Assembly (NCBI RefSeq): GCF_009746565.1
Contig: NZ_WRPN01000013.1
Span: 1-64,000 of the forward strand
Source: Mariniflexile maritimum
GTDB lineage: Bacteria; Bacteroidota; Bacteroidia; Flavobacteriales; Flavobacteriaceae
Reading direction: 5' to 3'
Length of the DNA: 64,000 nucleotides
Position 1 is the stretch's first letter. Each line of letters begins with the position of its first letter. Below the pieces are notes generated by a model, which saw nothing but the letters and a program-made list of their open reading frames with translations, was not told the origin of the DNA and did no database searches. A program made the position numbers and the translations under genes. Shown here piece after piece: positions 8,495 to 64,000 of this stretch.

Positions 8495-8977
8495 TTAAAA
8501 GGTTAACTGCCAAAAACCCACATCGAGCCATCGGTTAAATTTTAACCCAACTTCTTTAAAATGGGCCACTTGCTTAAATCCGAATTTTTCATGGAGCTTT
8601 ACACTAGCTTCATTTGGCAAGGTAAGGCCCCCAACAACCACATGGCACTCTTGCGCTTTCAAATAGTTTAAAAGTTGGGCGTAAAGTTTATAACCAATTT
8701 GTTGGCCTTGCGCTTCATGGTGAACATACACGGTACTTTCAACGGTATGCCTGTAAGCGGGTTTTTCGCGCCATTTATTGGCGTAAGCATATCCTAAAAT
8801 TTTAGCACCTTCCTCAAAAACAAAAAAGGGGTAATTTGAAACAATGCCGGCTATTTTGTGCCTAAATTCTTCTTCAGAAAACGGCACATCATCAAAAGTA
8901 ACCACCGTGTTCAACACATAATGGTTATAAATGGCAGCCAACTGTTTCGCATCGTTTGGGGTTACAGCTCTAATCAT
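8495..8977 (-). CDS. GNAT N-acetyltransferase (Pat/YwnH type)
   Basis: A 160-residue GCN5-related acetyltransferase. The opening IRAVTPNDAKQLAAIYNHYV, the YAYANKWREKPAYRHTVE stretch and the C-terminal LHEKFGFKQVAHFKEVG match the phosphinothricin/methionine-sulfone acetyltransferase subfamily. The acetyl-CoA site is at STVYVHHEAQGQQIGYKL. In this copy the usual R/Q-x-x-G-x-G/A loop reads QGQQIG, which is compatible. The likely role is acetylation of a small amine or amino-acid analogue. Neighbours give no pathway clue. Confidence 0.85.
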   Translation of the reverse strand: MIRAVTPNDAKQLAAIYNHYVLNTVVTFDDVPFSEEEFRHKIAGIVSNYPFFVFEEGAKILGYAYANKWREKPAYRHTVESTVYVHHEAQGQQIGYKLYAQLLNYLKAQECHVVVGGLTLPNEASVKLHEKFGFKQVAHFKEVGLKFNRWLDVGFWQLTF

Positions 8978-9029
8978 ACATTATAAATATTTTGGGAACC
9001 GTTTTTTTTTTGATAAATATAAAGAATTG

Positions 9030-9452
9030 TCAGGCAATTTCAACCAAACCGGTTTTTATGTAGTTTACGGCCATTTCTATGTTCCTGAATCGCTTTATTT
9101 TAGTACTGAAAAAAAGATTTTCAATTAGAGAATTTACAATGCCAATGGCATTTTGCGAAACGATAAAGTAACTTTTTAAGCTATAACTGTTGTTGAAAAA
9201 TTTGAACCAATCGGTCACAAAAACCGAGTAAGGATGGATTCTATTGGAAATATATATGAGGTCGCCCCCGTTGGTGCCCAGAAAACAGGCGATATCTTCG
9301 GTAATAATTTTCCCGTGGTCTTCCCAATTAAAAATAACGCCCCTATTAATTTCAGAAACCACAAACCCTTGAAAAATAAATATGTTTCCAAATGGGTAAA
9401 TAAGTTCTTTTATAACCTCGTTATAAAAACAGGTTTCTTTTATGCTTTTCAC
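9030..9452 (-). CDS. Hypothetical protein, possibly SpoIIAA/STAS-like
   Basis: A 140-residue cytoplasmic protein with no signal peptide or membrane segment. Its layout resembles a Bacteroidota family of about 130 residues with a SpoIIAA-like alternation of strands and helices. A central strand reads GDLIYISNRIHPYSV and a late helix reads RFRNIEMAVNYIK. I do not recognise a catalytic motif, and the family guess is weak. It lies between the GNAT gene and the immunophilin, all on the minus strand, with gaps of 52 and 153 bp. Confidence 0.6.
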   Translation of the reverse strand: MKSIKETCFYNEVIKELIYPFGNIFIFQGFVVSEINRGVIFNWEDHGKIITEDIACFLGTNGGDLIYISNRIHPYSVFVTDWFKFFNNSYSLKSYFIVSQNAIGIVNSLIENLFFSTKIKRFRNIEMAVNYIKTGLVEIA

Positions 9453-9550
9453 GGCACAAAAGTAGCCCTAGCAATTTTTAGGTTAAAAAATAATCGATTA
9501 ACCTAAAAAAAATTAGTTTTAAAGAGAAGTACTGGCCTTTTTTAGCCAAA

Positions 9551-9583
9551 CAAAAAAGCATCCTAAAACTAAGATGCTTTTTG
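9551..9583 (-). terminator. Terminator after the immunophilin gene
   Basis: Stem AAAGCATC/GATGCTTT (around 9555-9562 and 9573-9580) with a short loop. The minus strand continues in T. It lies about 25 bp past the stop of the 9606 gene; the A/T flanks would also let it work on the plus strand. Confidence 0.75.
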
Positions 9584-9605
9584 AAAAGTTTATTTTTTAC
9601 GACAG

Positions 9606-10538
9606 TTATTTAACGTTCATTAACTCTACATCAAAAATCAGGGTCGCATCGGGTGGAATAACCCCACCAGCTCCTCGGCTGCCGTAGCCCAAATGACTAG
9701 GGATTACAAAGCGTGCCTTATCGCCTACCCTTAAAAGTTGAATACCTTCATCCCAACCAGAAATAACCTGTCCTACGCCAAGTGGAAACTCAATGGGCGC
9801 ATTACGTTTGTACGATGAATCGAAAACAGTACCATCGGCCAGTTGCCCTTTATAGTGTACCGATACATTTTTGCCTTTTTCGGCTTTTGCCCCAGTACCC
9901 TTTTGAATGATTTGATAGCGCAACCCACTTTCAGTTTTGTTAAAACCGGCTGCTAAGGTATCCAATAAGGCCTCGGCCGCTTTTTTGGCTTCAGCCATTC
10001 TTTTTTCCCTAGAACCCTCAAAAGTTCTAAAAGCTTCAACAGCATTGTAAGCTTCCGCATCGGCGCCAACCCTTAAAATTTCCAGGCTATCAATTATATC
10101 GCCTTGCTTAATCGCATCCACAACATCCTGCCCTTCCACTACTTTACCAAAAACCGTGTGTTTGTTATCCAACCACGCTGTTTCTATGTGCGTTATAAAA
10201 AATTGGCTACCATTGGTGCCCGGGCCCGCATTTGCCATAGATAGAACCCCAGGCCCATCGTGTTTTAAATCGGGATGGAACTCATCGTCAAATTTATATC
10301 CCGGATCGCCGGTGCCAGTACCCTGTGGGCAACCTCCTTGAATCATAAAATCTGGAATTACCCTATGGAATTTTAAGCCATCATAATACGGGGTGCCTTG
10401 AGGTTTCACTTTGTTTTCTAGGTTCCCTTCGGCCAGAGCCACAAAGTTACCTACCGTTCCTGGTGTTTTTTTGTATTCTAAAGCAACTAGAATGTTTCCT
10501 TTTGTTGTGTTGAATTTTGCGTATAATCCGTCTTGCAT
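9606..10538 (-). CDS. Dual immunophilin: cyclophilin-FKBP prolyl isomerase
   Basis: One 310-residue chain joins two unrelated prolyl-isomerase folds. Residues about 5-155 are a cyclophilin, with [31 protein letters not shown] and the late [12 protein letters not shown]. After a helical linker (about 165-200, alanine and lysine rich) comes an FKBP domain, with [34 protein letters not shown] and the final [15 protein letters not shown]. Both active sites look complete. No signal peptide is seen, so it should fold proteins in the cytoplasm. Cyclophilin-FKBP fusions are known from some flavobacteria and protists. The gene stands alone with its own terminator. Confidence 0.93.
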
Positions 10539-10733
10539 GCTGTTCTTTTTTTATGAAGGGACAAAGATAAGGATGATTTTTGAGTTACGATTTACGAATT
10601 ACGGATTTTTAGAAACTACAAACAGAGTTTTACAGAAGATTGTTCAACCTGAAGATAAATATCGCGCAAAGACGGAAAGCTGAAAAACCAGAAAACTTTT
10701 TCACTTTTAACCGTTCACTTTTAACCTTAAAAA

Positions 10734-12938
10734 TCAATTAGCTACTTCACTAATAAATTTGATTCGGTACAAACGAAGTTCTTCATCTTCATAACTGCCA
10801 TCAAATTCCTTAATGGCGGCATCGATGCTATCGGTTTTGGATTCCATAAAATAATCGTGGATTTCCTCTTGCTGGTCTTCATCTAAAATTTCGTCAATCC
10901 AATAATTAATGTTCAATTTGGTGCCCGAATAAACGATGGCTTCCATTTCCTTAATAAACTCTTCCATGGTCATGCCTTTGGAAGAAGCAATGTCGTCCAA
11001 TGGCAATTTTCTATCAATATTTTGGATGATGTATAGTTTATTGGACGAATTACTGCCCGTTGATTTTACGACCAAATCGTCTGGACGGATGATGTCGTGC
11101 TCTTCCACATAGGCGGCAATAAGCTCAATAAAATCTTTACCGTACTTTTTGGCTTTGCCATCGCCCACACCATGTACGTTGGCAAGCTCGATCATGGTTA
11201 TGGGATATTTTAACGCCATATCCTCTAGTGAAGGGTCTTGAAAAATTACGAACGGTGGCACTCCTAATTTTTTGGCATTCTTTTTACGCAAGTCCTTTAG
11301 CAAGTCCATTAACAAGGGATCGGCTATGGCGCCTTCTGTTTTTGCAGCGGCAATGATGCTGCCGTCTTCCTGCTCGCCATCAAAAATGTGGTCTTCGGTC
11401 ATCATAAACGAGGTTGGATTTTTAATAAAATCCTTACCAGATGGCGCTAATTTAATAACCCCGTAAGTTTCAATGTCTTTTTTTAGCAAACCGGCAACCA
11501 GTACTTGCCGCAATAAAGCCATCCAATACTTTTTGTCTTTGCTGCTGCCTTTGCCAAAAAATGGCTGTTCATTGGTTTTGTGCGAATTTATCAGGGCGTT
11601 TTCCTTGCCAGTAATAACATGAACCAAATCTTTTGATTTGTATTTTTCGTTGGTATCATCGATGGTTTCCAACAATAATTTAACATCATCTTGGGCTTCA
11701 TGTTTCTTTTTGGGGAACCGCACGTTGTCGTCCATGGTACCGCCTTCGCCTGTGGCGTTATCAAATTCTTCACCAAAATAGTGCAAAATAAATTTCCTGC
11801 GCGAAATGGATGTTTCGGCAAATGCAACGACTTCCTGCAATAAGGCATGACCTATTTCTTGTTCGGCAACAGGTTTACCCGACATGAATTTTTCCAGTTT
11901 TTCAATGTCTTTATAGGCATAAAACGCCAAACAATGGCCTTCGCCGCCATCGCGTCCTGCCCTACCGGTTTCTTGGTAGTAACTTTCAATACTTTTTGGG
12001 ATGTCGTAGTGGATTACAAAACGCACATCGGGTTTATCGATTCCCATGCCAAAGGCAATGGTTGCTACCACCACATCCACATCTTCCATTAGGAATTGGT
12101 CTTGGTAGCTGGAACGCGATTTGGCATCCAACCCCGCATGGTAAGGCACCGCTTTAATTCCGTTAACTTGCAATACCTGGGCGAGTTCTTCAACACGCTT
12201 TCTGCTTAAACAGTAAACAATGCCCGATTTTCCTTGGTTTTGCTTTATAAATCGAATGATGTCGGCATCAACATTTTTGGTTTTTGGCCGTACTTCATAA
12301 TATAAATTGGGTCTGTTAAACGAGGCCTTAAAGGTTTTTGCGCCACTTATGCCCAGGTTTTTAATGATGTCTTCCTGAACTTTTGGAGTGGCCGTAGCTG
12401 TTAATGCTATAATGGGGATTTTATCGCCAATTCGACCAATAATCTGCTTTAGGTTTCTATATTCGGGCCTGAAATCATGCCCCCATTCACTAATGCAATG
12501 GGCCTCATCAATGGCCATAAACGACACTTTTACAGAGCGTAAAAACTCGACATTTTCTTCTTTGGTAAGCGATTCGGGCGCTACATACAACAGTTTGGTA
12601 ATGCCGTTTACAATATCTTCCTTAACCCGTTTAATTTCGGTTTTGTTCAATGAGGAATTCAAAACATGGGCAATCCCTTCTTCATTTGAGACCCCACGTA
12701 TGGCGTCCACCTGGTTTTTCATTAAAGCAATTAAAGGCGATACCACTATTGCCGTACCCTCTTGCATGAGTGCCGGTAATTGATAACAAAGCGATTTGCC
12801 CCCGCCAGTTGGCATAATAACGAAGGTGTTATTTCCAGAAACTATGTTTTCTATAACGCTTTCTTGCAACCCTTTAAACTTACCAAAACCAAAGTATTTT
12901 TTTAGCGCGGTTAGCAAGTCATTTTTAGCTATTAACAT
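10734..12938 (-). CDS. recQ: ATP-dependent DNA helicase RecQ
   Basis: A 3'-5' helicase for recombination and fork repair. The 734-residue chain has Walker A MPTGGGKSLCYQLP (about residue 40), DEAHCISEWGHDFRPEY with the aromatic-rich loop (about 145) and motif VI QETGRAGRDG (about 327). RQC and HRDC domains follow at about 400-630, with HGVGDGKAKKYG in the HRDC. A further tail continues to residue 734. In the RecQ-Ct region SISRRKFILHYFGEEF, the zinc-binding cysteines of E. coli RecQ are not present, as also in other Bacteroidota RecQ proteins. Divergent from the kdsD operon. Confidence 0.94.
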   Translation of the reverse strand: MLIAKNDLLTALKKYFGFGKFKGLQESVIENIVSGNNTFVIMPTGGGKSLCYQLPALMQEGTAIVVSPLIALMKNQVDAIRGVSNEEGIAHVLNSSLNKTEIKRVKEDIVNGITKLLYVAPESLTKEENVEFLRSVKVSFMAIDEAHCISEWGHDFRPEYRNLKQIIGRIGDKIPIIALTATATPKVQEDIIKNLGISGAKTFKASFNRPNLYYEVRPKTKNVDADIIRFIKQNQGKSGIVYCLSRKRVEELAQVLQVNGIKAVPYHAGLDAKSRSSYQDQFLMEDVDVVVATIAFGMGIDKPDVRFVIHYDIPKSIESYYQETGRAGRDGGEGHCLAFYAYKDIEKLEKFMSGKPVAEQEIGHALLQEVVAFAETSISRRKFILHYFGEEFDNATGEGGTMDDNVRFPKKKHEAQDDVKLLLETIDDTNEKYKSKDLVHVITGKENALINSHKTNEQPFFGKGSSKDKKYWMALLRQVLVAGLLKKDIETYGVIKLAPSGKDFIKNPTSFMMTEDHIFDGEQEDGSIIAAAKTEGAIADPLLMDLLKDLRKKNAKKLGVPPFVIFQDPSLEDMALKYPITMIELANVHGVGDGKAKKYGKDFIELIAAYVEEHDIIRPDDLVVKSTGSNSSNKLYIIQNIDRKLPLDDIASSKGMTMEEFIKEMEAIVYSGTKLNINYWIDEILDEDQQEEIHDYFMESKTDSIDAAIKEFDGSYEDEELRLYRIKFISEVAN

Positions 12939-13034
12939 GAATAGTATTAAAATTTATTTAAAAATTAAAAAATATAAACCAATGAAACCAAAGAGCCTTT
13001 ATTTTTAAAGTATTAAGAGAGTGCTCTTATGATT

Positions 13035-13057
13035 TTTTCGTTAGTTTTGTAACGAAA
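13035..13057 (+). promoter_or_regulatory. Promoter-like box inside an inverted repeat, upstream of kdsD
   Basis: TAGTTTTG (13042-13049) fits the TAnnTTTG promoter element. It sits inside an inverted repeat TTTTCGTTA/TAACGAAAA, so a regulator could cover it. It lies about 95 bp before kdsD in the recQ-kdsD divergent region. Confidence 0.4.
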
Positions 13058-13143
13058 ATCGAAATTACAATAAAAACCTGTTTATCGACAACATTAAAGA
13101 TAACAAAATCTTTAAAAGCATCACCCAAAAAAATCAATAAATT

Positions 13144-56019: not shown

Positions 56020-59000
56020 ATGAGTTTTATAAATTCTGTACTAAAAGTATTTGTTGGCGACAAATCAAAACAAGATGTAAAGGCCATCACCCCTATCCTA
56101 AATAAAATCAAAACCTTTGAAGCGGCCATTGGGGCGTTATCCCACGATGAACTTCGCGCTAAAACGGCGCAGTTTAAAACCCTCATTGCGGAAGCCATAA
56201 AGCCCATAAACGACCAAATAGATGGCCTGCTCGTAGAAGCTGAAAACACCGAAGATATTGACCGACGAGAAGATATTTACCAAGCCATTGATAAGTTAAA
56301 GGATGATGCCTACAAGATTACCGAAGACGTTCTGAACAACATTCTGCCCGAAGCCTTTGCCGTAATAAAGGAAACGGCCAAACGGTTTAAGGACAATACC
56401 ACCCTTACCGTAACCGCAAGCGCGTTTGACAGGGAACTATCGGGCAACAACGATTATGTTACCCTGGATGATGATAAGGCCATCTGGTCCAACTCCTGGG
56501 ATGCCGCGGGAAAAGCCATTACCTGGGACATGGTACATTACGACGTGCAACTTATTGGCGGTATTGCCCTGCACCAAGGCAAAATAGCCGAAATGCAAAC
56601 AGGTGAGGGTAAAACCTTAGTGGCCACACTACCCATGTACCTCAACGCCCTTTCGGGAAATGGGGTCCATTTGGTAACGGTAAACGATTATTTGGCAAAA
56701 AGGGATAGCGCGTGGATGGCGCCAATATTCCAATTCCACGGGTTAACGGTCGATTGTATAGACCACCACCAACCCAATAGCGAAGCCCGAAAAAAAGCCT
56801 ATAACGCCGATATAACCTACGGAACAAACAACGAGTTTGGTTTCGATTACCTGCGCGATAACATGGCACACTCGCCCAACGATTTGGTACAACGCCCGCA
56901 CCACTACGCGATTGTAGATGAGGTAGATTCGGTGCTAGTGGATGATGCCCGTACCCCCCTAATTATTTCGGGCCCCATTCCGCAAGGCGAACGCCATGAG
57001 TTTAACGAGCTAAAACCGAAGGTTGATGATATTGTTGCGGTACAGCGCAAGTATTTAACCGGTGTTTTGGCTGAAGCTAAAAAATTAATTGCAGCTGGCG
57101 ATACCAAAGAAGGCGGGTTCCAATTGCTCCGCGTGTATCGTGGTATGCCCAAAAACAAAGCCCTTATTAAATTTTTAAGTGAGGAAGGCGTAAAGCAATT
57201 GCTTCAAAAAACCGAAAACTATTACATGCAGGACAACAACCGCGAAATGCCAAAGGTGGATGCCGAACTGTATTATGTGATTGAAGAAAAGAACAATCAA
57301 ATTGAGCTTTCCGATAAAGGCGTGGAATACTTATCCGGAAAAGACGATCCCAACTTTTTCATCATGCCGGAAATTGGTGTTGAAATCGCCAAAATTGAAA
57401 GCCAACAGTTACCTTTAGCCGAAGAAGCAAAGTTAAAAGAAGAATTATATAAAGATTTTGGAGTAAAATCAGAGCGTATCCACACCCTTAACCAATTATT
57501 AAAGGCCTACGCATTATTTGAAAAAGACATTCAATATGTGGTTATCGACAACAAAGTAATGATTGTTGATGAGCAAACCGGCCGTATCATGGATGGCCGC
57601 CGCTATTCCGATGGTTTGCACCAAGCCATTGAAGCCAAAGAAAACGTAAAAATTGAAGATGCCACCCAAACCTTTGCAACCATCACCCTACAAAATTACT
57701 TTAGGATGTACCGCAAACTATCGGGCATGACGGGTACAGCGGTAACCGAAGCGGGCGAGTTTTGGGAAATCTATAAATTGGATGTGGTTGAAATTCCTAC
57801 CAACCGCCCCATTGTGCGCGATGACAGGGAGGATTTGGTATATAAAACAAAACGCGAAAAGTACAATGCCGTTATCGATGAAGTTACCAAACTTTCATTA
57901 GCAGGTCGCCCTGTTTTGATAGGCACCACTTCGGTAGAAATAAGCGAATTGCTTGCAAAAATGCTTACCATCCGCAAAATTCCGCACAACGTTTTAAATG
58001 CAAAACTGCACAAAAAAGAAGCCGACATTGTTGCCGAAGCGGGCCAACCCGGGCAAGTAACCATTGCTACCAATATGGCGGGTCGTGGTACCGATATTAA
58101 ATTAACCGATGCCGTAAAAAAAGCCGGTGGTTTAGCCATTGTAGGTACCGAGCGCCACGATTCGCGCCGTGTGGATAGGCAGTTGCGCGGTCGTGCCGGT
58201 CGCCAGGGCGACCCCGGAAGCTCGCAATTTTATGTGTCGTTGGAAGATAACCTCATGCGTTTATTTGGTAGCGAGCGCATCGCTAAAATGATGGATCGCA
58301 TGGGCTTGAAGGAAGGCGAAGTGATCCAACATTCCATGATCTCAAAATCTATTGAACGTGCCCAGAAAAAAGTAGAGGAAAACAACTTTGGGGTTCGTAA
58401 GCGTTTGTTGGAATATGACGATGTAATGAACGCCCAACGCGAAGTGGTTTACAAACGTCGCCACCATGCCTTATTTGGCGAGCGTTTGCGCGTGGATTTG
58501 GCAAACATGATTTTTGATACCGCAGAAGGCCTTGTTGAAACCAATAAAACAGCAAGCGATTATAAAAACTTCGAATTTGAACTGATTCGGTATTTCTCGA
58601 TGAGTTCGCCCGTTTCGGATGCTGAATTCGCAAAACTATCGGCTCCAGAAATCACTTCCAAAATTTACAAGGCCGCTTTTGAATATTACAAAGACAAAAT
58701 GGCGCGTAATGCCGATTTAGCTTTTCCCGTTATTAAAAACGTGTATGAAACCCAACGCGATAAATTTAAACGCATTGTGGTACCGTTTACCGATGGCATT
58801 AAAACCCTAAACGTGGTAACCGACCTGGAAAAAGCCTACGAAACCAACGGAAAACAATTGATTACCGATTTTGAAAAGAACATCACCCTGGCCATTATCG
58901 ACGACGCTTGGAAAACCCATTTACGCAAAATGGACGAGCTAAAACAATCGGTGCAATTGGCAGTGCACGAGCAAAAAGACCCGCTGCTTATCTATAAATT

Positions 59001-59373
59001 TGAGGCCTTTGAATTGTTTAAAGCGATGATAGACGAGGTAAACAAAGATGTGATTTCCTTCTTGTTTAAGGGCGAATTACCGCATGAAACGCAAAACACC
59101 ATTCAAGAAGCGAGAGAACGCAAACAGGAAAAATTAAACATCCAAAAAGACGAAATCCCTAATTTGGATGAGCGTTCGGCACAAAGTCGTTCAGCAGGAC
59201 AAACCCAGCAGCAGCACCAAGTAACGGAAACCATTGTGCGCGACAGGCCCAAAATTGGCCGTAACGACCAAGTAACCATCAAACACGTGATTACCGCCGA
59301 GAGCAAAACCCTCAAATACAAACAAGCCGAACCTTTATTGGCCAAAGGCGATTGGGTGTTGGTTGAAAACTAA
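56020..59373 (+). CDS. secA: Preprotein translocase ATPase SecA
   Basis: Motor that drives proteins through SecYEG. The 1117-residue chain is longer than E. coli SecA because of inserts in the first nucleotide-binding domain, as usual in Bacteroidota. AEMQTGEGKTLVATLPMYL is Walker A, VDEVDSVLVDDARTPLIISG the DEVD box, and TNMAGRGTDIKL plus RQLRGRAGRQGDPG the second motor domain. The helical wing and scaffold end with DDAWKTHLRKMDELKQSV. The tail has KIGRND where many SecA proteins read KxGRNDPCPCGSGKK, but continues without any cysteine, so the SecB-binding zinc motif is absent. Transcribed alone. Confidence 0.96.
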   Translation: MSFINSVLKVFVGDKSKQDVKAITPILNKIKTFEAAIGALSHDELRAKTAQFKTLIAEAIKPINDQIDGLLVEAENTEDIDRREDIYQAIDKLKDDAYKITEDVLNNILPEAFAVIKETAKRFKDNTTLTVTASAFDRELSGNNDYVTLDDDKAIWSNSWDAAGKAITWDMVHYDVQLIGGIALHQGKIAEMQTGEGKTLVATLPMYLNALSGNGVHLVTVNDYLAKRDSAWMAPIFQFHGLTVDCIDHHQPNSEARKKAYNADITYGTNNEFGFDYLRDNMAHSPNDLVQRPHHYAIVDEVDSVLVDDARTPLIISGPIPQGERHEFNELKPKVDDIVAVQRKYLTGVLAEAKKLIAAGDTKEGGFQLLRVYRGMPKNKALIKFLSEEGVKQLLQKTENYYMQDNNREMPKVDAELYYVIEEKNNQIELSDKGVEYLSGKDDPNFFIMPEIGVEIAKIESQQLPLAEEAKLKEELYKDFGVKSERIHTLNQLLKAYALFEKDIQYVVIDNKVMIVDEQTGRIMDGRRYSDGLHQAIEAKENVKIEDATQTFATITLQNYFRMYRKLSGMTGTAVTEAGEFWEIYKLDVVEIPTNRPIVRDDREDLVYKTKREKYNAVIDEVTKLSLAGRPVLIGTTSVEISELLAKMLTIRKIPHNVLNAKLHKKEADIVAEAGQPGQVTIATNMAGRGTDIKLTDAVKKAGGLAIVGTERHDSRRVDRQLRGRAGRQGDPGSSQFYVSLEDNLMRLFGSERIAKMMDRMGLKEGEVIQHSMISKSIERAQKKVEENNFGVRKRLLEYDDVMNAQREVVYKRRHHALFGERLRVDLANMIFDTAEGLVETNKTASDYKNFEFELIRYFSMSSPVSDAEFAKLSAPEITSKIYKAAFEYYKDKMARNADLAFPVIKNVYETQRDKFKRIVVPFTDGIKTLNVVTDLEKAYETNGKQLITDFEKNITLAIIDDAWKTHLRKMDELKQSVQLAVHEQKDPLLIYKFEAFELFKAMIDEVNKDVISFLFKGELPHETQNTIQEARERKQEKLNIQKDEIPNLDERSAQSRSAGQTQQQHQVTETIVRDRPKIGRNDQVTIKHVITAESKTLKYKQAEPLLAKGDWVLVEN

Positions 59374-59387
59374 CAAATGATTGCGAA

Positions 59388-59414
59388 TCCCGATAGACGG
59401 GAAGAAATGCCATA
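59388..59414. repeat. Degenerate fragment of the structured repeat
   Basis: TCCCGATAGACGGGA (59388-59402) followed by GCCATA at 59409 resembles the 3' hairpin and end of repeat copy A (TCCCGATAGC...ACGCCATA). The 5' half of the element is missing. It lies right after the secA stop. Confidence 0.45.
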
Positions 59415-59419
59415 AAACA

Positions 59420-59455
59420 AAATCCCGGTAGCTTATATATCGGGATTTCTTATTT
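59420..59455 (+). terminator. Terminator after secA
   Basis: Stem AAATCCCG/CGGGATTT (59420-59427 with 59441-59448), 13-base loop, then TCTTATTTG. It lies about 45 bp past the secA stop. Confidence 0.7.
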
Positions 59456-59484
59456 GTTTAAGCCTTACGTCACACTTCGGCGCT

Positions 59485-59724
59485 TTACTTAATAATGACT
59501 TCCGTTTTCTTGTCGCCTTTTTTGCTCGAAAATTCCACACCGTCTTTATCCACACTTAGGGAAGTGCCGTCCGGTTCCTTTTCCTTCTCTTTTTCAATAA
59601 TCACTGTTTTCTCCTTTTCAACAGGTTTTTCAATAATGACCGTTTCCGTTTTGGGCTTTTCCTCACGGCAGCTTACTACTGATAAAACGGCAACACTAGC
59701 CAATATAAAAACTAATTTTTTCAT
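59485..59724 (-). CDS. Small charged lipoprotein
   Basis: A 79-residue precursor with a lipoprotein signal ending at LSVVSC. The mature part is low-complexity, with repeats of VIIEKPVEKEK-type heptads rich in Glu and Lys, then SLSVDKDGVEFSSKKGDKK. It would be an extended, charged lipoprotein in the envelope. No homologous function recognised; small Bacteroidota lipoproteins of this kind are common. Convergent with secA. Confidence 0.68.
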   Translation of the reverse strand: MKKLVFILASVAVLSVVSCREEKPKTETVIIEKPVEKEKTVIIEKEKEKEPDGTSLSVDKDGVEFSSKKGDKKTEVIIK

Positions 59725-60148
59725 GGTGCATGGTTTTTAAGTTATACATTGGCAAGATAGTAAAGTTGCAACCCGCTATATTACAGCAATTTTGCTTTGT
59801 TTTATAGAATTGCCATTTGGGAGTAGATGTTTGTTGTTTTTACTTCGGCTAAACAAAAGGTATTAGCTTTGTGAAAATTCAATTCACACTTATAAATTCA
59901 AAAATCCTGATAATAGATGTAGGTTTTTTTTGTTTTTAGGTGTTTGATTTGTGGGATTAATATCTTGATTACAATTGCAACTCAAAAACAAGTTATATTA
60001 AATAAAACTAAAAAACATCAATGCATAAATCAGATCACCTAAATTGAATTCAAATTTTTAGTCTCATAAAAATTATAACAAATTAAGAATAAAACAGTTA
60101 AACTTTTGAATGAAAACAGAATAAAATAAGTATTTTAGTGCCAAAATT
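59725..60148. other. Gene-free stretch upstream of the dnd remnant
   Basis: About 420 AT-rich bases without a plausible gene on either strand. TATTTTAG at 60131-60138, 10 bp before the dndC ATG, is a weak match to the TAnnTTTG box. No dndB or other dnd gene is found here, although dndB often precedes dndC. Confidence 0.5.
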
Positions 60149-61469
60149 ATGGCGAAATTTATACAAAATATAGTTAACGAAATTATAGACCAATATGCTT
60201 ATGCCGATGAAACAAATCGTCCGTGGATTATTGGTTTTAGCGGTGGAAAAGATTCAACAGTGATGCTTCAACTTATATGGAAAGCTATTTCTCAAATAAA
60301 AGAGTTGACAGGTATTATAAAACGTGATATTTATGTAGTTTGTAACGACACTATGGTTGAAAACCCAGTTATTACAGAATACGTGTATCGGGTACTCGAT
60401 AAAATTGAACAAGCAGCGGTTGAACAAGACATCCCCATAAAAGTAATAAAAACAATACCCAGGTTAGAAGATTCGTTTTGGGTTAATCTTATTGGACGTG
60501 GCTATCCTGCTCCTAACAACGCTTTTAGATGGTGTACGGAACGACTTAAAATCAAACCTACTTCTAGGTTTTTAATAGAGCAAATAGACGAATTTGGTGA
60601 AGCCGTTATCTTAATTGGCACCAGAACCGCGGAAAGCGCCCAACGTGCTAAGTCCATGAAAAAACACGCTATTAAGGGAAAGCGTTTAACAAAGCATCCA
60701 ACACAGCCAAACACCTATATGTACGCCCCTATTCGTAGTTTGAGTTTAGAGGAAGTTTGGTATGTTATTAATACGATGGAATCGCCATGGGGTTCGGATA
60801 ATGCAGAACTTTTTCAAATATATTCAGATGCAAGTGCAGACGACTACGAATGCCCAACAGTTGTAACAAACAAGGAGCATAAATCTTGTGGGCAAAGTCG
60901 TTTTGGGTGCTGGGTGTGTACCGTTGTGAAAGAAGATAAATCAATGTCTGCATTGATTGATAACGGATTAACTTGGTTAACACCCTTATTGAAATTTAGA
61001 AATCAATTGGCGGCTGAAAGAAATATTATCGAACACCGAATGCCCGAACGCAGAAATGGAACAGCAGCCATTAACGGTATGGGACCATATTATCCTTGGT
61101 ATAGGGCAAAAGTGTTAGAAAGGCTTTTTGAAACTCAAAAATAGATTCAAAAAGAAAAACCGCACGTTGAACTGATAACAAACCAAGAATTAGTTGCCAT
61201 TCAAACTATATGGTATAGAGATTATATTTTTAACCAAAAAGTTTCAGAATTATACCGAAAAGCATATAAAATCAATTTGGATATGAAAGACCAAAACGAA
61301 AAACACGAAAAAGAATTAGAGTTATTGAAAAAATCGTGTGAGGACAACCCCAACGATTTTCACTTAATTCAAGAATTGTTAACGCTCCAAAAAAAAAAAA
61401 TCGCTTTTGAATAAAAAAAGAGGTCTGAAAGAGGATATGATGAAAAGGTTAGAATTTGCTTTAAATTAA
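60149..61469 (+). pseudogene. dndC: DNA phosphorothioation protein DndC, broken
   Basis: DndC is the PAPS-reductase-like ATP pyrophosphatase of DNA phosphorothioation. The first 331 residues are intact: IIGFSGGKDSTVMLQLIWKA is the PP-loop, VVCNDTMVENPVI and RWCTERLKIKP follow. CPTVVTNKEHKSCGQSRFGC and then CWVCTVV hold the iron-sulfur cysteines. The C-terminal region is interrupted twice. An in-frame TAG at 61142 falls in FETQK-IQKEKPHVELITN, where Glu would fit (GAG to TAG). Then a run of 12 A (61389-61400) shifts frame; removing one A gives SLLNKKRGLKEDMMKRLEFALN and a TAA at 61467-61469. That TAA overlaps the HNH ATG by one base, so this was the native end. Confidence 0.85.
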
Positions 61470-62431
61470 TGGTTAAAAATTTAGCATATTATGTTTATTG
61501 CTTCACCCATTTAAAAAGAGATAACAAAAATGGTGGAGCACCACACAAACCAATACTTTTATTGAGTTTGATAAATCTATTCAATAAGGGTATTTACAAC
61601 AATCAAGAAATTTTAATAACGGCAGAATTAGTTTCCTCTTTCAAAACTAATTGGAATAAATTAGTTTTCACCAATCATCATCCAATTTTTTCTTTACCAT
61701 TTTATCATATGAATTCAGAGCCTTTTTGGAAGTTGATTCCAAATTTAGGTTGCGAAAAATGGATTGAATCTAAAAGCTCAATGAGAAGCTTTGGTAATTT
61801 AACTACTGCTGTAAAAACAGCATTAATTGATAAAGAACTTTCAATAATTTTATTAAAACCTGAAAACAGGGATATTTTAAAAATCGCAATTTTAGATAGA
61901 TATTTCCCTGAATCTAAATCAAATTATGGCTCAAATGGTAATGACGAATTGCCTTCAGTTATGATTCTTCACGAAAGTTCAGAAGAATACAAAAGAAAAA
62001 TAATTGAACTCAAAAACAGTTTAGATGAAAACGCATTTCAGGAAGAAATATTTATAAGAAGTGGTATTTTTAAAAGAGAAATACCCAAAATATATGATAA
62101 CACTTGTTGCATATCAGGAATGAGGATTGATGCAACTGCAAATATTTCAATGATTGATGCTTGTCATATTGTTCCTTTTGCCGAAGCTTATGATGATACT
62201 TTAACAAATGGAATTGCTTTAAGTCCTAATTTACACCGTGCATTTGATAGAGGTTTAATTTCAATTTCAGACGATTATAGAGTTTTGATTAAAAAGAATT
62301 TTGTCGAAAATAGTAATTCAGTTTTCAACTTAACACAATTTGAAAATCAAAAAATTATACTGCCAAAACACGAAACCTATTTTCCTTCACTAGAAAATTT
62401 TCATTATCATAGAAATAGGTTTAATTTCTAA
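61469..62431 (+). CDS. HNH nuclease with SBD-like N-terminal domain
   Basis: A 320-residue intact protein. The N-terminal part (about 5-150) with NGGAPHKPILLLSLINLF, LITAELVSSFKTNWNKLVFTNHH and FSLPFYHMNSEPFWKLIP resembles a widespread family related to the phosphorothioate-binding domain of McrA-type enzymes. The C-terminal part is an HNH_2 nuclease: NTCCISGMRI, DACHIVPFAEAYDD, then NGIALSPNLHRAFDRGLISI, with the metal-binding His pair. Its ATG overlaps the native dndC stop. By analogy it would cut or nick phosphorothioated DNA. The SBD assignment is by eye and needs a profile search; without it this is a plain HNH nuclease. Confidence 0.78.
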   Translation: MVKNLAYYVYCFTHLKRDNKNGGAPHKPILLLSLINLFNKGIYNNQEILITAELVSSFKTNWNKLVFTNHHPIFSLPFYHMNSEPFWKLIPNLGCEKWIESKSSMRSFGNLTTAVKTALIDKELSIILLKPENRDILKIAILDRYFPESKSNYGSNGNDELPSVMILHESSEEYKRKIIELKNSLDENAFQEEIFIRSGIFKREIPKIYDNTCCISGMRIDATANISMIDACHIVPFAEAYDDTLTNGIALSPNLHRAFDRGLISISDDYRVLIKKNFVENSNSVFNLTQFENQKIILPKHETYFPSLENFHYHRNRFNF

Positions 62432-62441
62432 CAGTATCATT

Positions 62442-62523
62442 GCGTGAGGGATAGAAGTGGAAAGCCCGCAGCGAGGAACGAGCGAGGACTTGTAACGTAT
62501 AGCCCGACCCTTTAGGGACACGC
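62442..62523. repeat. Structured repeat, copy B, within the dnd remnant
   Basis: Outer stem GCGTG/CACGC (62442-62446 with 62519-62523), variable middle, conserved GTAACGTATAGCCCGACC, then a hairpin CCCTTTAGGG (62508-62517). It follows the same plan as copy A, with paired changes in both stems. It lies 11 bp after the HNH stop and about 30 bp before the first residues of the broken DndE-ATPase reading frame. Confidence 0.8.
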
Positions 62524-62550
62524 CAAAATATTAAAAATTAGTAGAAAAAA

Positions 62551-63882
62551 ACTTTTTTTTGCAGACGCTCCAATGAAAACATTCCAAAATATGTAAAACT
62601 CCATATTGACCACGGATTGGAATTAATGGACAATTTGTTTAGCAACAACAACAATTACACGTTTTTCGATTTCTTGATTGAGCATTTGGACAAAGGAATT
62701 TCAATGCTTGATACAGTTACGGTAAGCCTAGATGCTGTAAAAAACAATAGCCAAAATATTGAAAAAACATTTTTTAAAGAACCAATTAAAATCAATGTTG
62801 GCAAAAACACTTCAACTCATGAAGATATTTTACTTGGCTTTAACAATACCAATGTTTACAATAATTGCCATATTGCAGTTGCCGGTAGTTCGGGAACAGG
62901 AAAAACGCAATTTGCTTTAGAGTTGCTCAATCAAATAAGCAGTGCGTCTAATCATCATGTGAGTTTTATTTATCTTGATTTTAAAGGTTTAAAAGATGAG
63001 GACTTAAAATATTTTCAACCATTTTTTGATAAAACAAAAGCCTCATTTATTGATGCTCCAAATACGCCATTTCCAGTAAATCCACTCTCATTTATTGATA
63101 GCATTAATGAAGTAAACAAACAAATGGGCGTTGACAAATTTGTTGATATTATCTGTAAATACTCCAACATTGGTATCAAACAAAGAGGCACATTACGTGA
63201 TGCAACTTTGGAAGCATTCATGAGTAAAAAACCGGGCGAATACCCAAGTTTTCCTGAAATAAACGAAAAACTATTGGAAATTGTTGGAGATAAACGGGAT
63301 ACGCTAACGGAAATTATTGACGAGTTAAGTCGTTATAACATTTTTAAGGAACCAAAAAGTGGAGCAAATTTTTTAAACCAAAACATCTATTTGTCATTAT
63401 CGGGCGATTTATCAAATTCCGTTCGCTTTACCTCTTTGTTTCTTATCATCAATTACATCTACAACACTTTTATGAATATGGATAGCACACCAACAGAAAA
63501 CGGTTATAGAGGTATGCGCTATGTATTATTGATTGATGAAGCACACGTGATTTTCAAAGAAAAGAAATATCAAGATATATTAGAAAAAATCCTTCGTGAA
63601 ATTCGTTCAAAAGGCGTTTCCGTAATGATGCTTTCCCAAGGTATTGACGAATTTAACCAATCGAATTTTGATTTTTCGAGTATGTGTGAAATGTCATTTC
63701 TTTTGGATGTTAAAGATAAAACAAATACAAAAGCCATCAATAAATTTCTTGGGCTTAGCGACAAGGATGGCCTTAAAGTGGCTAGAAGTCTTGAAAAAAT
63801 CCAAAAAGGTCAAGCTATTTCCAATATTAAGGAATTTACAAAAGGTGAGTTGTTTGAGTTGAAACAGTTTTATGCGGGTTGA
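62551..63882 (+). pseudogene. DndE-ATPase fusion, 5' end lost
   Basis: The open frame extends upstream of the first usable starts (TTG 62617, ATG 62626) to about 62551. It contains NENIPKYVKLHIDHGLELM there, which resembles the last residues of a DndE domain. The rest of DndE (about 80-90 residues) is missing; repeat copy B lies in its place. The remaining 420 residues are a HerA/FtsK-type ATPase: Walker A AVAGSSGTGKTQFALELL, Walker B YVLLIDEAHVIF and the sensor-like VSVMMLSQGIDEF. The ATPase part looks intact and could still be made from the TTG or ATG. Whether such a fragment functions is unknown. Confidence 0.7.
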
Positions 63883-63902
63883 TGGGTAAAATTACTAACC
63901 CA

Positions 63903-64000
63903 TCAAACCACCTCCCCAAACAAATCAAAATCGGCGGCATCGATAATTTTTACGGTGGTAAATTCGCCCGTTTTTAAATAGGTTTTGCTGGCATCTATCA
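63903..64000 (-). CDS. rimO: Ribosomal protein S12 methylthiotransferase, 3' end
   Basis: Only the last 32 residues are present. The TRAM-domain end FTTVKIIDAADFDLFGEVV matches the C-terminus of RimO, the radical-SAM enzyme that methylthiolates an aspartate of ribosomal protein S12. Stop TGA lies at 63903-63905. Convergent with the dnd remnant, 20 bp away. The gene continues beyond the window. Confidence 0.75.
   Translation of the reverse strand, partial: IDASKTYLKTGEFTTVKIIDAADFDLFGEVV

Follow-up and report, generated by a model that had tools for sequence, protein, structure and literature searches.

The window analysed here (64,000 nucleotides, positions 1 to 64,000 of contig NZ_WRPN01000013.1 of Mariniflexile maritimum) carries at positions 60149-63882 the remains of a dnd operon for DNA phosphorothioate (PT) modification, in which the gene of a predicted PT-dependent nuclease stands at the position of dndD. 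The nuclease is predicted to combine a sulfur-binding domain (SBD) with an HNH catalytic domain. Operons of this kind were probably converted, and repeatedly so, from writing PT to restricting PT-modified DNA, with a gene for an SBD-HNH nuclease of predicted function replacing dndD. The same swap of dndD for the nuclease recurs in related bacteria, and therefore a tagging system seems to have been turned into an anti-tagging defence. The simplest account is that nuclease gain and dndD loss were linked and that the locus would now restrict PT-DNA.

The HNH protein of the window

The HNH gene (61469-62431, forward strand) is open, as the first-pass annotation had stated, and codes for 320 amino acids. 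Compared with the related locus L072 it shows 17 nonsynonymous and 50 synonymous differences (dN/dS 0.07, Fisher p 4e-23). The best match of the protein in the PDB is 8h0l, the SBD of Hga with PT-DNA, which aligns with residues 6-150 (phmmer E 3.6e-8; E 1.3e-21 with a profile of 47 sequences). The AlphaFold2 model (predicted local distance difference test, pLDDT, 89.5; predicted template modelling score, pTM, 0.82) has the same entry as its top Foldseek match with E 1.1e-9, a template modelling (TM) score of 0.89 by target and a root mean square deviation of 1.7. The SBDs of SprMcrA and ScoMcrA follow more weakly. The model and the Foldseek matches thus place the protein in the sulfur-binding domain fold. 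The C-terminal part matches HNH_2 (PF13391) at 45.2 bits (cut-off 21), and its residues D230, C232, H233, N247 and H256 are invariant in the 47 sequences, so that the HNH catalytic domain is intact. NF045808, the model for PT-DNA restriction endonucleases, also matches the C-terminal part, with 82.5 bits, under its cut-off of 180 bits.

Residues H26, K27 and P77 are invariant in the 47 sequences, and the PHK motif and the following LP motif are conserved. The residues of the sulfur pocket described in PMC6224610 and PMC7461809 are H/R(K) and Y-P; L76 stands where the published pocket has Tyr. By a comparison made through 8h0l and not by superposition of structures, P77/H26/K27 would correspond to ScoMcrA P165/H116/R117. 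Sequence and predicted fold mark the HNH protein as a predicted SBD-HNH PT-dependent nuclease, so that cutting of PT-modified foreign DNA, i.e. type IV restriction, is its most likely use. A second HNH gene is found on the same contig outside the window (G000:C5:92737-93027), with its likeness limited to the HNH part (35%).

Broken dnd genes of the window

All dnd genes of the locus lie on the forward strand. The first 331 amino acids of DndC (60149-61469) match TIGR03183 at 383.8 bits (cut-off 290.4). The frame ends at the nonsense codon TAG 61142-61144, beyond which the next 89 amino acids still match DndC. An alignment with 13 intact DndC proteins places a second lesion, a frameshift, in the A-run near 61390-61402. 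The homologous C-terminus ends in TAA 61467-61469 and overlaps the start codon ATG (61469) of the HNH gene by one base. A genomic repeat (62436-62532, forward strand) follows directly 3' of the HNH gene and is itself followed by a stub of a few dndD codons (62533-62558), assigned by blastn colinearity to position 11096 of L072, where the longer dndD remnant of that locus starts. The last gene (62575-63882) is a DndE-HerA fusion truncated at its 5' end and consists of the last part of DndE and a HerA/FtsK-like ATPase, as judged from blastn to L072 12304-13612 and from HerA_C and DndH ATPase-domain matches. It starts at about residue 89 of the L072 fusion, to which the retained part is 96% identical. 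About 1.2 kb of L072, comprising the 3' half of dndD and the DndE N-terminus, is deleted in the window between 62558 and 62575. In relatives the fusion is whole, and whole fusions carry PF08870 DndE.

The genome (3.66 Mb in 38 contigs, listed as 100% complete) contains no further DndC copy, the window dndC being the sole match, and no DndD at E<=0.001; DndB, DndFGH and Ssp were not searched genome-wide. The double break of dndC, the absence of dndD and the truncation of DndE were thus described correctly in the first-pass annotation, which had also suggested the search for other dnd copies. The open ATPase part that it listed is the HerA/FtsK-like half of the DndE-HerA fusion. DndC, DndD and DndE are not all whole in the window, and PT modification would not be expected from this locus, since dndD was not found and dndC and DndE are broken.

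The dndC gene, the HNH gene and the DndE-HerA fragment are flanked by secA, with a small reverse open reading frame, on one side and by rimO on the other. DndC is absent from all five other genomes of the genus that were searched, and the homology of these five genomes to the window stops at rimO.

Whole dnd operons

The DndC search covered two samples with two genomes in common: 397 genomes from the family, with 14 over cut-off, and 395 from the class, with 15 over cut-off. The 28 DndC loci over cut-off are 25 loci with dndC-dndD-dndE in order, the window and two loci of the genome G504. The latter have weak dndD-like neighbours only and stand outside the 25. In every one of the 25 loci dndD occupies the slot after dndC, and in none is a whole SBD-HNH gene present within the 13-20 kb around each. 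The HNH gene can be ruled out as an original part of the operon because all 25 loci are without a whole SBD-HNH nearby. This comparison with complete dnd loci of relatives had been proposed in the first-pass annotation. That annotation had offered as one reading that modification was lost and that the locus keeps its intact nuclease as a type IV defence. The type IV part stands as the most likely use of a predicted SBD-HNH enzyme beside broken dnd genes. The nuclease was not kept from the original operon; most probably, its gene replaced dndD repeatedly, in different dndC lineages.

At least four of the 13 loci from the family have a TAATG overlap between dndC and dndD. The dndC/HNH junction is also TAATG in the window, L072 and L076.

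Two of the 25 loci may be singled out here. At L188:9382-14373 a dnd locus without HNH has dndC, dndD and DndE-HerA each split by stops or frameshifts, possibly a sequencing error. In L179, the larger stretch around L154, a piece of the SBD (about 63 residues, at L179:9093-9362, the same place as L154:1069-1338) immediately precedes dndC in a dndC-dndD-dndE operon that is otherwise whole; it looks as if the exchange could run the other way too.

Nuclease genes in the dndD slot of relatives

Screening 84,980 species genomes with the HNH alignment yielded 248 relatives; the best 80 were analysed. These were chosen by HNH sequence alone, and dnd genes played no role in the choice. In 21 of the 80 loci, profile searches place dndC upstream of HNH and on its strand; in 17 of these it abuts directly (L072, L074, L075, L076, L078, L079, L087, L089, L090, L094, L096, L099, L104, L105, L109, L116 and L130), the dndC frame ending at most 41 nucleotides from the start of HNH homology or overlapping it. 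Other genes stand between dndC and HNH in L081, L082, L084 and L151. A search of 75 upstream regions adds short dndC leaders in L107 and L123 (30.1 and 16.1 bits; the maximum in 544 control windows was 6.9 bits). In total, 19 of the 80 HNH genes abut dndC or a 3'-truncated dndC, and 23 have an upstream dndC remnant. The HNH gene at the dndC/dndD boundary in these 19 and dndD there in all 25 dnd loci demonstrate that the cutter and the writer occupy the same slot. In L095, cut at a contig edge, nothing but a HerA fragment, downstream of HNH, is seen. Genes of the SBD-HNH family also sit in many places without detectable dnd genes.

The remains of the operon differ among the 19 loci. The dndC gene is of full or nearly full length in eight (L072, L074, L075, L087, L090, L096, L105 and L130) and shortened in eleven, with about 25-32 codons left in L107, L078, L109 and L123. 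Its 5' end is retained wherever the contig reaches, with the exception of L099 and L116, where the profile is matched from positions 22 and 20 onward. Only L072, L074, L075 and L076 have kept a 3' piece of dndD, and none of the 19 has the gene whole. DndE-HerA follows downstream in five (L072, L074, L075, L076 and L096), among which L096 is a compact three-gene operon with junctions of one to four bases. The locus L090 alone is little informative because only 395 bases lie beyond its HNH gene. The genome search found DndD over cut-off in none of the 19 linked genomes searched (L079 is outside this sample); apart from the four dndD remnants named above, one partial DndD match of 235 positions turned up, in the L082 genome, and the genomes of L107, L109 and L123 have none at 1e-15. 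Named isolates with the arrangement are Flavobacterium piscinae (strain ICH-30), Chryseobacterium candidae (JC507), F. restrictum, F. antarcticum (DSM 19726), Plebeiobacterium marinum and Aquiflexum lacus.

In L078, L109 and L123 about the first 32 codons of dndC end at the P-loop motif (GFSG or GFGG), and this occurs in two dndC lineages; it may reflect chance, a deletion hot spot or a role as leader. Flavobacterium restrictum (L076:1715-2677) has an in-frame break, one stop or shift, within the HNH gene that occupies its dndD slot, so that the nuclease can also be lost. Insertion as a homing endonuclease was rejected: no precise insertion is seen, since the dndC and dndD ends vary by locus and sequence is lost. 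Spread by phages was rejected as well: when viral sequences were scanned with the 47-sequence alignment, the only matches were two loci, over 65 residues of the HNH part.

Probable independent origins and age of the nuclease

Among the HNH-linked DndC proteins, L087 is nearest to L034 (84%), L074/L075 to L036 (81%) and L130 to L026 (75%), all three being proteins of intact loci. The DndC tree of 41 rows needs nine changes of state, at least eight of them forced by starred branches, and a single origin of HNH-linked DndC occurs in 0 of 200 bootstrap trees. After removal of four short or long-branched rows seven changes remain, at least six of them forced, and one clade is rejected by the approximately unbiased (AU) test (p 2.7e-53; the tested group was set by gene neighbourhood with the first tree already known). 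The change counts leave the direction of change undecided. HNH-linked dndC genes are polyphyletic. On the tree of the HNH proteins, 13 changes of the dnd label are required, six of them forced, with L107 and L123 labelled as solo. Travel of HNH together with the 3' arm of dndC was rejected as a general rule: in full or nearly full HNH-linked DndC the N and C parts mostly share their nearest neighbours, L096 and L079 being less clear.

L074 (Flavobacterium) and L075 (Chryseobacterium) share the island only, i.e. 8635-13093 of 20.9 kb. Their synonymous divergence (dS) is lowest in HNH, at 0.12; it reaches 0.67 in dndC, 0.84 in DndE-HerA and 1.00 in what is left of dndD. The tract of low divergence (9668-11038) covers the dndC end, HNH and the repeat, and stops at the repeat-dndD junction; none of 300 permutations was as extreme. 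Between the window and L072 dS is 0.95 in the first part of dndC, 0.33 in its second part, 0.31 in HNH and 1.02 in DndE-HerA. The contrasts between HNH and its neighbours in these pairs have Fisher p from 3e-9 to 3e-21. Because of this lower HNH dS, the nuclease is younger than its surroundings in two of the three close pairs.

In L072 dndC is whole and is followed by HNH, the repeat, a dndD remnant that starts at about codon 370-376, and a whole DndE-HerA. The window shares its HNH-repeat-dndD junction, after which come the 1.2 kb deletion and the remaining DndE-HerA. From this shared junction and the window-specific deletion it appears that dndD was replaced first, before the window and L072 lineages split or swapped the tract, and that the other damage in the window came later. 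The repeat of roughly 90 bases is dispersed, with 13 matches in the genome at 71-100% identity, which rules it out as a cassette-specific mark. It also follows the HNH gene in L072, L073, L074 and L075 and is found near L049, L055 and L064. Rfam has no match for 59000-64000, and the fold of the repeat is ordinary (z -0.80).

Proposed conversion of the operon and other explanations

In the proposed conversion the ancestor would be a PT-modification operon dndC-dndD-dndE/HerA, and the gene of an SBD-HNH PT-dependent nuclease would take the place of dndD. This gene stands directly behind dndC, so that the dnd promoter would probably drive it and its translation would probably be linked to that of dndC. 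A cell without DndD cannot make PT, so that the nuclease would spare its own DNA and cut incoming PT-modified DNA. In favour of the conversion, a related PT nuclease is described in PMC3009677 as killing cells that express dndA-E. We infer that the nuclease is expressed and enzymatically active, and that PT loss and nuclease gain were one event. Within the Bacteroidota this replacement would have happened repeatedly and on different dndC lineages; dndC, residual dndD and dndE would then decay while the nuclease would be kept, and the window would represent a late stage. The whole island may also be dying, with the nuclease the next to go, as in the second reading of the first-pass annotation; the broken HNH gene of L076 would fit this.

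Several observations weigh against the conversion. DndD is over cut-off in 2 of 50 genomes with SBD-HNH outside dnd loci (L107, L109 and L123 are counted among these 50). This rate is near the DndC rates of 14/397 and 15/395, without visible depletion, and a genome-wide incompatibility of solo SBD-HNH with dndD is unsupported, as two of the 50 genomes have both. In the genome G122 a 41%-identical HNH lies on one contig and an intact dnd locus on another. On a Chlorohelix plasmid (L070:8001-15128) a 28.5%-identical SBD-HNH is convergent to annotated dndB, DndE, dndD, dndC and dndB. The segment scan of the window/L072 pair took nearly the whole aligned stretch and placed no breakpoint at HNH, in L079/L081 the dS of HNH (0.95) does not differ from that of dndC (0.96), and many linked genomes are incomplete metagenome-assembled genomes (MAGs). 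Differing PT motifs could explain the cases of coexistence, and they were suggested as the reason for such coexistence in PMC7461809.

The alternative that survives best, although it is unlikely, is that deletion of dndD killed the operon first and that a PT nuclease, now harmless, later settled there for the promoter. The replacement would then be the consequence and not the cause of PT loss. A dndC locus with dndD deleted and no insert was not met among the 28 DndC loci (the two of G504 were not examined further). Moreover, L074 and L075 have whole dndC and DndE-HerA genes, and their dndD remnant has stayed open and conserved (dN/dS 0.06), so that these operons look alive until recently. On the other hand, SBD-HNH genes move freely, as their many sites without detectable dnd genes demonstrate, and other antiphage genes have entered broken dnd loci: a ThsB-like TIR gene and a caspase-like gene stand between the dndC remnant and HNH in L081 (1568-3357), and a HamB-like helicase gene in L084 (2563-4098).

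It is improbable, though conceivable, that the conversion is a self-promoting switch. A dnd-flanked HNH allele would recombine through its flanks into PT-positive relatives, end PT there at one stroke and restrict PT-positive kin, and breaks in the PT-marked chromosome could favour its repair-driven spread, like a gene drive. A younger HNH tract, which may reflect exchange by homologous recombination between strains, is seen in L074/L075 and window/L072, and not in L079/L081.

A working partnership is very unlikely, be it a new complex of DndC, SBD-HNH and DndE-HerA or a PT system with the nuclease as its restriction half. The restriction-half role was proposed for Dnd-linked HNH proteins in PMC10853773, and the eight full or nearly full dndC genes, the five loci with DndE-HerA and the compact operon of L096 would suit it. 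Nevertheless, 11 of the 19 loci have only a truncated dndC or a leader of it, the dndC of the window is broken, most loci lack DndE-HerA, and dndD, part of the obligate core according to the same source, is never whole.

An artefact, with assembly errors behind the dndC lesions and misassemblies or MAG chimaeras behind the HNH-dnd neighbourhoods, is hardly credible. One lesion does lie in an A-run, MAGs are the source of several linked loci and the L188 locus resembles sequencing error, but the arrangement is present in six named isolates and is independent of the two window lesions.

Comparison with known systems

According to PMC7461809, less than 3.6% of predicted PT-dependent enzymes lie near dnd, and about 65 cases were left unresolved there. 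Rakesh, Aravind and Krishnan (2024, PMC10853773) described HNH proteins with a sulfur-binding winged helix-turn-helix (wHTH) domain beside Dnd modification genes. Their wHTH-SAD-HNH proteins have three domains, lie downstream of the modification genes and were regarded as likely modification partners. Missing DndD or DndE was put down to poor assemblies, DndD-DndE being taken as an obligate core. Unlike the proteins described in that source, the window protein has two domains and stands in the dndD slot, with dndD not whole. The search of the open-licence PMC literature yielded no description of a PT nuclease in the place of dndD. Our analysis suggests a concrete answer to why PT-dependent nucleases sometimes adjoin dnd genes, an association left unresolved in PMC7461809 and taken as cooperation in PMC10853773: at least within this Bacteroidota family the nuclease stands at the site of dndD. 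If this is true, modification and anti-modification would be alternative states of one locus, and the named isolates allow both states to be compared.

The type IV endonucleases SprMcrA, ScoMcrA and EcoWI and the SBD of Hga share with the window protein the architecture of N-terminal SBD and C-terminal HNH. Unlike the solo SBD-HNH endonucleases, the window gene, with its predicted activity, stands inside a dnd operon in the place of dndD. With respect to the canonical Dnd operon with a DndE-HerA fusion (PMC10853773), the window dndC and DndE-HerA are homologous to the whole genes of L026, L036, L037 and L038; in contrast to it, the window is without dndD, its dndC and DndE are broken, and no modification would be expected. 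Pneumococcal DpnI, DpnII and DpnIII are alternative cassettes (PMC12707154), and the likeness is that a modification-dependent nuclease and a modification system alternate in one genetic slot; the dnd swap would be the backbone-modification counterpart of the DpnI/DpnII alternation. DpnI, DpnII and DpnIII are exchanged within one species, whereas the dnd swap extends across genera, with ragged junctions and remnants, and a two-way exchange would be conjectural.

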